Positions 9,703 through 12,244 of a DNA stretch of 64,000 nucleotides are shown here, piece after piece. The DNA lies in contig NZ_FNPH01000004.1 in the NCBI RefSeq assembly GCF_900107255.1, positions 186,001-250,000 on the forward strand, read 5' to 3'. Made by a program: the position numbers and the translations under genes. Position 1 is the stretch's first letter. Every line of letters begins with the position of its first letter. Under the pieces are notes generated by a model. That model was not told the origin of the DNA. It was given only the letters and a program-made list of their open reading frames with translations, and did not search any database. Origin of the DNA: Micromonospora pattaloongensis (lineage in GTDB: Bacteria > Actinomycetota > Actinomycetes > Mycobacteriales > Micromonosporaceae).

Positions 9703-9864
9703 GACGATCTTTCCTCTCCGACGGGTGTGACCGATGCTAGGCCCGTTCTGCGAGGACGGCTCGGGAAAGCCTCCCCTCTTCCCGGGGGAGGAGGGGAGGC
9801 GCCGTGACGCCGAACGCGTCCGGCGGGGGCGGAGGATGCGCTATCGTCGACGTTTTGAGCGCAT

Positions 9865-9893
9865 AAAAAAAGAACCGCTGAATCAGCGGCTCT
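9865..9893 (-). terminator. intrinsic terminator immediately downstream of the antisense promoter
   Basis: Read on the minus strand, AGAGCCGCT-GATTC-AGCGGTTCT (9893-9871) forms a 9-bp stem (one G-U pair) with a 5-base loop, directly followed by six T residues (9870-9865). This is a textbook rho-independent terminator, unusual here because most terminators in the window lack a U-tract. With the promoter at 9929-9900 it defines a transcription unit of only about 30 nt. On the plus strand the hairpin lies in the helD leader but has no U-tract. Confidence 0.7.
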
Positions 9894-9899
9894 GTTGAG

Positions 9900-9929
9900 A
9901 TATTAGCAGCTAGGGAGTCGCATTGTCAA
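9900..9929 (-). promoter_or_regulatory. near-consensus sigma-70 promoter, antisense to the helD start
   Basis: On the minus strand TTGACA (9929-9924) and TAATAT (9905-9900) are separated by 18 bases. The -35 hexamer is a perfect match and the -10 is one base off TATAAT. Such a match is rare in this GC-rich window. The -35 overlaps the TTG start codon of helD (9923-9925). Predicted transcription would start near 9893, at the first base of the terminator hairpin described next. Confidence 0.65.
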
Positions 9930-12244
9930 CCTCCGCGGGGCATCCGGACGAAATCCGGACCGACGAGCTCGACCGCGAGCAGGAGTACGTGGGGACGCTC
10001 TACGGACGCCTCGACGACCTGCGTGAACACGCTGCCCAGCGGCTGAGCCGGGCGCTGCGCGAGACCGGCGGCACCCTGCAGGACCGTTCCCAGCGGGAGA
10101 GCGCGGTCGCGCTCTACTCCGAGCAGCTGGCCCAGTTCAGCGCCGTCGAGCAGGGGCTCTGCTTCGGCCGGCTCGACTTCCACGCCGCGGCGCCGCGCTA
10201 CGTCGGCCGCATCGGCCTCTTCCGCGACGGCGACCACCAGCCGCTGCTGCTCGACTGGCGTGCCCCGGCGGCCCGCCCGTTCTACCTGGCGACCGCGGCC
10301 TCCCCCGAGGGCGTGGCGCGGCGGCGCTACATCCGCACCCGGGACCGCAAGGTCGTCGGGCTGGACGACGAGGTGCTCGACCTCGCGGCGGCCCGGGACA
10401 CCCACGCCGGGCCGGCCGGCGAGGCGGCGCTGCTGGCCGCGATCGGTGCGACGCGTACGGGCCGGATGCGCGACATCGTCGAGACGATCCAGGCCGAGCA
10501 GGACCGGGTGATCCGCGCCGACCTGGACGGCGTCCTCGTCGTGCAGGGCGGACCCGGCACCGGCAAGACCGCTGTCGCGCTGCACCGCGCCGCGTACCTG
10601 CTCTACACCCACCGCCGGGAGCTCTCCGCCCGGGGCGTGCTGATCGTCGGCCCGAACCCGACGTTCCTGCGCTACATCTCGCAGGTGCTGCCGTCGCTGG
10701 CCGAGACCGGCGTGCTGCTGCGCACCCTCGGCGACCTGTTCCCCGGCGTCACCGCGCGGGCGGACGAGCCGGCCGGCGCCGCCGAGATCAAGGGCCGGCT
10801 GGCGATGACCGAGGTGTTGGCCGCGGCGATCCGGGACCGGCAGCGGGTGCCCGACGAGCCGCTGGAGATCGTCGTCGAACGGGACACCCTGGTGCTCGAC
10901 CCGGAGACCATCCGCGCGGCGCGCGCCTCGGCCCGCCGCTCCGGCAAGCTGCACAACCTGGCCCGGCCGATCTTCGACACCGAGATCGTGCACGCCCTCG
11001 CCCGGCAGGTCGCCGACCGTATCGGCGCCGACCCGCTCGGCGGGGAGAACCTGCTCGACGAGGCCGACCTGGCGGAGATCCGCCGGGAGCTGCGCGCGGA
11101 GCCCGAGGTCCAGGCGGTGCTGGACTGGCTGTGGCCGATCCTCACCCCGCAGCGGCTGGTCGGCAGCCTGCTGGTCTCGGCCGACCGGCTCGCCGCGGCC
11201 GCGCCCCAGCTCACCGACGCCGAGCGGGCGCTGCTGCTGCGCGGCCCGGAGCACGGCTGGACCCCGGCGGACGTGCCGCTGCTCGACGAGGCCGCCGAGC
11301 TGCTCGGCGAGGACGACCGGGCCGCGGCGGCGCGCCAACAGCGCGAACGCCGGGCCCTCGCCGAGTACGCCGAGGGCGCCCTGGAGATCCTGACGGGCTC
11401 CCGCTCCATCGACGTCGAGGACGAGGACGACCCCGAGATCCTGAGCGCCACCGACCTGCTCACCGCCGGCCGCCTCGGCGAACGGCACGAGGAGGAGGAC
11501 CGCCGCACCACCGCGGAGCGGGCCGCCGCCGATCGCCGCTGGGCGTTCGGGCACGTCATCGTCGACGAGGCGCAGGAGCTCTCGCCGATGGCGTGGCGGC
11601 TGCTGATGCGGCGCTCGCCCAGCCGGTCGATGACGGTCGCCGGGGACGTGGCCCAGACCGGGGACCTCTCCGGGGCGTCGTCGTGGGCGCAGGTGCTCGC
11701 GCCGTACGTGGCGGATCGGTGGCGGCTGGTGGAGCTGGAGGTCAACTACCGGACGCCCGCGGAGATCATGGCGGTGGCGGCCGGCGTGCTCGCCGGGATC
11801 GACCCGTCGCTGAAGCCGCCGCGCTCGGTGCGCGAGACCGGCGTCGCGCCGTGGACGTTCCGGGTGCCGCCGCAGCGGCTCGCCGACGAGCTCGCCGGAC
11901 GGGTCCGGCGGGAACTCGCGGAGGTGGGGGAGGGGCGGCTCGGCGTGATCGTCCCGACGGGCCGGCTCGACGCGCTCGCCCGGGCGGTCGTCGACGCGGC
12001 GCCGGAGGCGGCGGTGGGCGCGCAGCCGGAGCTGGAGAGCCCGGTCGTGGTGCTGACCGTACGGCAGGCCAAGGGGCTGGAGTTCGACTCGGTGCTGGTG
12101 GTCGATCCGGAGGGGATCGCCGCGGAGTCGCCGCGCGGGCAGAGCGACCTCTACGTCGCGCTCACCCGCGCCACGCAGCGCCTCGGCGTGCTGCACCCCG
12201 GTCCGCTGCCGCCCGCCCTGTCGGGGCTGGACCAGTCGTCCTGA
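9923..12244 (+). CDS. helD: HelD-like RNA polymerase recycling ATPase (UvrD/Rep-type)
   Basis: 773 aa, starting at TTG 9923 with AGGGAG five bases upstream. The N terminus (about 10-75) is a charged helical region, as expected for the HelD coiled-coil arm. It is followed by a superfamily-1 helicase core split by insertions: Walker A VVQGGPGTGKTAVALHRAAY (about 208-227), Walker B HVIVDEAQELSPMAWRLLMR (about 545), motif VNYRTPAEI (about 610) and the C-terminal VALTRATQRLGVLHPG. HelD proteins bind RNA polymerase and strip it from nucleic acid; some actinobacterial members protect against rifamycins. The leader contains an unusual antisense promoter-terminator pair that may control it. Confidence 0.9.
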   Translation: MSTSAGHPDEIRTDELDREQEYVGTLYGRLDDLREHAAQRLSRALRETGGTLQDRSQRESAVALYSEQLAQFSAVEQGLCFGRLDFHAAAPRYVGRIGLFRDGDHQPLLLDWRAPAARPFYLATAASPEGVARRRYIRTRDRKVVGLDDEVLDLAAARDTHAGPAGEAALLAAIGATRTGRMRDIVETIQAEQDRVIRADLDGVLVVQGGPGTGKTAVALHRAAYLLYTHRRELSARGVLIVGPNPTFLRYISQVLPSLAETGVLLRTLGDLFPGVTARADEPAGAAEIKGRLAMTEVLAAAIRDRQRVPDEPLEIVVERDTLVLDPETIRAARASARRSGKLHNLARPIFDTEIVHALARQVADRIGADPLGGENLLDEADLAEIRRELRAEPEVQAVLDWLWPILTPQRLVGSLLVSADRLAAAAPQLTDAERALLLRGPEHGWTPADVPLLDEAAELLGEDDRAAAARQQRERRALAEYAEGALEILTGSRSIDVEDEDDPEILSATDLLTAGRLGERHEEEDRRTTAERAAADRRWAFGHVIVDEAQELSPMAWRLLMRRSPSRSMTVAGDVAQTGDLSGASSWAQVLAPYVADRWRLVELEVNYRTPAEIMAVAAGVLAGIDPSLKPPRSVRETGVAPWTFRVPPQRLADELAGRVRRELAEVGEGRLGVIVPTGRLDALARAVVDAAPEAAVGAQPELESPVVVLTVRQAKGLEFDSVLVVDPEGIAAESPRGQSDLYVALTRATQRLGVLHPGPLPPALSGLDQSS

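Follow-up and report, generated by a model that had tools for sequence, protein, structure and literature searches.

A conserved antisense promoter-terminator unit at the helD start codon of Micromonospora pattaloongensis and its relatives, a probable convergent-promoter switch

Results and Discussion

In the 64,000-nucleotide stretch of Micromonospora pattaloongensis DNA analysed here (the window), comparison with orthologous loci showed that the start codon of helD accommodates the -35 of a predicted consensus antisense promoter, which faces a weak-looking sense promoter at a fixed distance with a terminator between the two. We have very high confidence, judging from the conserved sequence features, that this promoter-terminator architecture is real and conserved. 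Its function is read largely by analogy with helD of Bacillus subtilis: a convergent dual-promoter switch in which antisense interference at helD would be relieved by drug is the reading that we favor, with a probability of about 0.7. Repression of helD by convergent transcription is likely on this analogy and rifamycin sensing by the element is probable, so that the layout would probably keep helD off until polymerase is blocked.

Architecture of the helD start region

HelD relatives rescue RNA polymerase (RNAP) from rifampicin-type drugs, and HelD acts generally on stalled RNAP. The protein encoded in the window is homologous to M. smegmatis HelD/HelR, with an E value of 2e-186 against M. 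smegmatis HelD (PDB 6YXU), and its best NCBIfam matches were HelR_2 (786.6 bits) and HelD_MYCSM (719.7 bits), both under the curated cut-offs. The gene and the elements around its start are as follows.

9842..9847, plus strand: predicted sense helD -10, TATCGT (TATCTT in most relatives), at a position fixed relative to the antisense -10
9865..9871, minus strand: T-run of the putative antisense intrinsic terminator (an A-run on the plus strand), with TTTTTT at 9870-9865
9865..9893, minus strand: predicted antisense RNA of ~29-30 nt, its ends deduced from the antisense -10 and the terminator
9871..9893, minus strand: putative terminator hairpin AGAGCCGCTG-ATT-CAGCGGTTCT, 10 pairs, one of them G-U, forming the 5' end of the antisense RNA
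9900..9905, minus strand: antisense -10, TAATAT, extended by TGC just upstream, assigned from sequence; TANNNT is kept in 60 of 80 named relatives
9912..9917, plus strand: helD Shine-Dalgarno sequence AGGGAG, within the antisense promoter spacer; relatives have an equivalent one
9923..12244, plus strand: helD, a class II HelD/HelR-type RNA polymerase recycling factor of 773 aa (NCBIfam and PDB matches)
9924..9929, minus strand: antisense -35, TTGACA, which falls within the helD start TTG-TCA-A

The minus-strand promoter TTGACA-N18-TAATAT described in the first-pass annotation was recovered at 9929-9924 and 9905-9900, with an 18-nt spacer that ends in TGC at its 3' side, and the overlap of its -35 with the TTG start codon also held, as the complement of TTGACA lies inside TTG-TCA-A. 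The hairpin and the run of six T residues likewise stood, although 10 pairs were counted in the stem rather than the 9 first given. On the minus strand the hairpin begins six nt beyond the -10. The predicted 30-nt antisense RNA folds at -15.6 kcal/mol (z = -5.2), a value equaled by 0 of 200 shuffled sequences, while the sense helD leader has no excess of structure over shuffles (z = 0.18).

The antisense promoter was the sole sigma-70-like promoter detected in the first 20 kb of the window (0.4 expected). A simple scan, which returned this 1 promoter against 0.4 expected and 4 terminators against 2.7 expected, is by itself compatible with chance; the conjunction of promoter and terminator excludes chance. 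When the genome was searched with the combined pattern TTGACAN{17,19}TANNNTN{22,42}TTTTT, with the reversed pattern as control, a single place in 5.35 Mb matched, namely the helD start, and the control had 0 matches there.

Conservation across actinobacteria

Upstream regions of HelD orthologues were gathered from the same family, order and class, the named ones coming from the GTDB collection, in which the closest matches place helD among Micromonosporaceae. The promoter-terminator pattern occurred in 75 of 151 family genomes, where most of the sites are helD starts by sequence, and 25 of the 30 family pattern sites that were fetched adjoin HelD. An antisense promoter was present in 60 of the 80 named helD relatives. 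Among the controls it turned up in 8 of 1600 shuffled windows, in 2 of these 80 windows when searched on the plus strand, and in 1 of 772 windows drawn from other parts of these loci. The full pair, promoter and terminator together, occurred in 20 of 20 Micromonospora and in 0 of the controls. The check for conservation of the pair upstream of other helD genes, one of those proposed in the first-pass annotation, was strongly positive. The remaining 20 of the 80, Saccharopolyspora and Dactylosporangium among them, had no recognizable antisense promoter.

Most of the Micromonosporaceae relatives carry the terminator besides the antisense promoter, and the complete unit was seen in Actinoplanes, Paractinoplanes, Couchioplanes, Virgisporangium, Planosporangium and some Actinokineospora and Kibdelosporangium, whereas Streptomyces, Frankia, Gandjariella and others have the antisense promoter without a recognizable T-run terminator. 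These sequence comparisons indicate that a large share of actinobacteria, namely Micromonosporaceae, several Pseudonocardiaceae, Frankia and, at one helD paralogue, Streptomyces, have an antisense promoter at helD, mostly at the same predicted spacing of ~40 bp.

The Streptomyces paralogue, which does not bear the rifamycin-associated element (RAE) (L103, L107, L109-L111, L118, L119, L315, L326-L328), starts with TTGTCAA and lacks a T-run terminator; its convergent -10s are 51-53 bp apart in four named loci, and a GC-rich palindrome is present in some leaders. A second helD copy in another genome (L137, genome G113) has a consensus-like sense TTGACA promoter facing an antisense TTGACA promoter around a long inverted repeat. 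A regulon extending beyond helD was considered and dropped, since the matches away from helD in family genomes, which precede a MarR gene, a LacI-type gene and others, are about as frequent as matches to reversed-pattern controls. In one genome a promoter-terminator match covers the ATG-TCA start of a MarR-family gene (L177, G045:C1:3734048-3734103), and this may be chance or a transferred switch.

The coding sequence itself appears to bear the mark of the promoter. [ATG]TGTCAA together with a Shine-Dalgarno sequence was kept at the start in 41 of the 54 family orthologues that reach it. All 23 element-bearing genes examined start with TTG, and 22 of them continue with TCA, even though TCA makes up 2.2% of their other Ser codons; these 23 genes were anchored on TGTC, so that 41/54 is the less biased count. 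Retention of TCA and of TGTCAA at this position argues that the helD coding start is probably constrained by the antisense -35. One relative (L016, genome G003) starts with TTGTCG, which changes the antisense -35 to TCGACA; it has no good antisense -10, and the hairpin persists. On its sequence it is predicted to be a natural mutant with constitutive helD expression.

The sense promoter and convergent spacing

The sense promoter proposed in the first-pass annotation (TTGAGC at 9855-9860, CTGAAT at 9878-9883) was abandoned for lack of conservation; the conserved sense -10 is TATCGT at 9842-9847, with no good -35 and a predicted start site at ~9854. The convergent orientation originally described is thereby retained, but the sense promoter does not lie inside the hairpin, and the two predicted start sites, taken at ~7 nt beyond each -10, are ~40 bp apart. 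In a search that allowed gaps of 46-60 bp between the two -10s, 53 named relatives had both in register, with a median gap of 52 bp (IQR 51-53). A convergent promoter pair ahead of a rifampicin-protection gene is thus seen across the named set (antisense in 60 of 80, both in register in 53), and the predicted spacing of ~40 bp agrees with the ~39 bp at which two facing polymerases just fit. The sense -35 matched consensus at a mean of 3.0 of 6 positions versus 2.3 in shuffles, while the antisense -35 is perfect and its -10 extended; the combination of a perfect antisense -35 with a poor sense -35 fits what is expected of a strong-antisense/weak-sense pair.

The hairpin as an antisense terminator

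MAFFT alignment followed by RNAalifold yielded no consensus structure, as the stems differ in position and the loops in length; stems were instead detected sequence by sequence, with shuffles, arm swaps and strand-bias counts. The mean stem score was 19.1 against 11.5 in shuffles. The 5' arms were distinct in 24 of 26 cases, and arms swapped between species paired at 53%; the stem sequence thus drifts widely while compensatory changes keep the pairing. Across 82 distinct stem-loops, with the T-run excluded, 19 positions were G-U on the minus strand versus 4 only on the plus strand (p = 0.003), or 15 versus 4 by distinct context (p = 0.02). The 8 nt after the hairpin contained on average 6.0 T on the minus strand and 0.8 on the plus strand in the same 82 stem-loops, at sites selected for a minus-strand T-run and with related sequences that are not wholly independent. 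A drifting stem with a minus-strand bias in G-U pairs and T-run makes it most likely that the hairpin acts in the antisense RNA, where it would serve as an intrinsic terminator, rather than in the sense leader or as a sequence-specific operator.

Proposed mechanism and comparison with known systems

At B. subtilis helD and pps, a strong antisense promoter was shown experimentally to repress a slow facing sense promoter, and sub-inhibitory rifampicin relieves the repression by jamming the busy antisense promoter (PMC12802891, NAR 2026). For B. subtilis helD, a mutant antisense -10 led to higher sense activity and to loss of rifampicin induction; induction was likewise lost with rpoB H482Y, the response running through binding of the drug by RNAP. 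The start sites there are 39 bp apart and shortening by 17 bp abolished regulation; the antisense RNA is ~90 nt, long enough to pass the sense promoter (PMC12802891).

The Micromonospora element would work as a convergent dual-promoter switch of the same kind. In normal growth RNAP would fire repeatedly from the antisense promoter and make an RNA of ~30 nt, and the front edge of the terminating antisense polymerase would cover the sense start site and -10, leaving helD mostly off. The antisense RNA should not reach the sense start, stopping ~10 nt away from it; what interferes would then be the footprint or pausing of the elongating or terminating polymerase, and the terminator may both prolong the stay of RNAP near the sense promoter and keep antisense transcription out of the neighboring gene. 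If a rifamycin or similar inhibitor blocked some of the RNAP in initiation, the busier antisense promoter would jam first, interference would end, and free RNAP would leave the weak sense promoter and transcribe helD, whose product would then rescue RNAP. The idea in the first-pass annotation that antisense transcription occludes helD until RNAP is inhibited is carried over, as the mechanism it shares by analogy with B. subtilis helD and pps, with the position of the sense promoter revised.

The B. subtilis PhelD/Panti-helD pair and the present element have in common the helD gene, facing promoters, a dominant antisense promoter (here predicted from sequence), a start-site spacing of 39 bp there and ~40 bp predicted here, a long antisense spacer (19 or 18 there, 18 here) and a short terminated antisense RNA (here predicted). 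Unlike the B. subtilis system, the present one serves a class II actinobacterial HelD and builds the antisense -35 into the start codon, and it has its terminator between the two promoters, before the sense start is reached, whereas the B. subtilis RNA is long enough to extend beyond the sense promoter. Regulatory interference between opposed promoters also underlies the scbA-scbR model of S. coelicolor (PMC3134472), an instance of general convergent interference; here, by comparison, the antisense unit should stop after ~30 nt between the promoters and serve one gene.

Relation to the RAE and alternative explanations

Actinobacterial rifampicin-protection genes, helD included, are said to carry the RAE instead of convergent promoters (PMC12802891), and the RAE has been described ~20 bp downstream of the P1 start (PMC10719064). 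We read its sequence from mycobacterial- and Streptomyces-type HelR loci, the genus identities being inferred: GGGGCTTGCGGCAAGGCCC or a close variant is frequent in HelR_2-type (Mycobacterium-like) and HelR-type (Streptomyces-like) loci. Like the present element, the RAE of Streptomyces and mycobacterial helR and of other rifamycin-resistance genes is a cis element in the 5' leader with a palindrome downstream of the sense promoter, and on this likeness the inverted repeat could be an operator for a rifamycin-responsive protein, a form of RAE. We regard this as very improbable. The core CTTGCNGCAAG of the conserved 19-bp RAE palindrome was found 0 times in the window and 0 times in the upstream regions of helD here (L001) and its 80 named relatives, yet it is visible in many RAE-type HelR leaders; moreover, the RAE is a conserved sequence of the GGGGCTTGCGGCAAGGCCC type, whereas the repeat here has diverged in its arms and is strand-specific in its T-run and G-U bias, which fits an antisense terminator. 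Membership of the helD element in the RAE was rejected on the absence of the core, and from its distribution the RAE and the convergent-promoter element appear to serve different HelD lineages. In helR leaders (L219-L248, L189-L218) TTGCNG can be read on either strand of the RAE palindrome, which is preceded at ~10 bp by a conserved TATA-like block and followed by a CANAAT block, and from these sequences the RAE may hold back-to-back -35s of sense and antisense promoters rather than an operator only.

Two other explanations turn on what the antisense promoter makes. It could drive the VOC (glyoxalase-like) gene at 9702-9175, the next gene downstream on the same strand in the window, through a leader attenuator; this is hardly credible and was rejected, the element being conserved where the fetched flanks (≤1.5 kb) of the 80 named relatives and of the family pattern loci contain no VOC homologue. 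Regulation by the ~30-nt RNA itself, through pairing with the helD 5' leader instead of through the act of transcription, would suit its perfect positional complementarity to that leader and the conservation of the hairpin as antisense RNA, but is quite improbable, as the RNA falls short of the Shine-Dalgarno sequence and start codon and is locked in its stable hairpin, and as the Streptomyces convergent promoters persist without a recognizable T-run terminator. It is unlikely, though credible, that the promoters interfere but report general initiation capacity (free RNAP, sigma factor, DNA state or other inhibitors) and not rifamycins: the layout senses blocked initiation in principle, HelD acts on stalled RNAP in general, and in S. 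venezuelae rifampicin is reported to induce just one of the five helD genes, the one with the RAE (PMC8655204), while the B. subtilis counterpart answers rifampicin through drug binding by RNAP, as its loss in rpoB H482Y demonstrates. Provided that S. venezuelae has the convergent-promoter paralogue, its result may count against drug sensing by that Streptomyces gene, and it makes a drug response of the Streptomyces convergent pair doubtful.

Significance

The sole published account that we found of this type of alarm, that of B. subtilis (PMC12802891), assigns actinobacterial helD to the RAE. The drug-relieved convergent switch favored here would belong to that known kind, and what appears new, from sequence and analogy, is an actinobacterial variant distinct from the RAE. 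We offer more tentatively, at rather less than even odds, the broader proposal of a protein-free actinobacterial sensor of RNAP status apart from the RAE, in which a ~65-bp promoter-terminator unit whose -35 sits in the start codon would park RNAP on the sense promoter in each round and report any block of initiation, by rifamycins or otherwise, the same convergent layout having arisen or persisted in two phyla. The helD element would be a compact sensor that needs no protein, and would give a handle on how antibiotic-producing actinobacteria sense inhibitors of RNAP.
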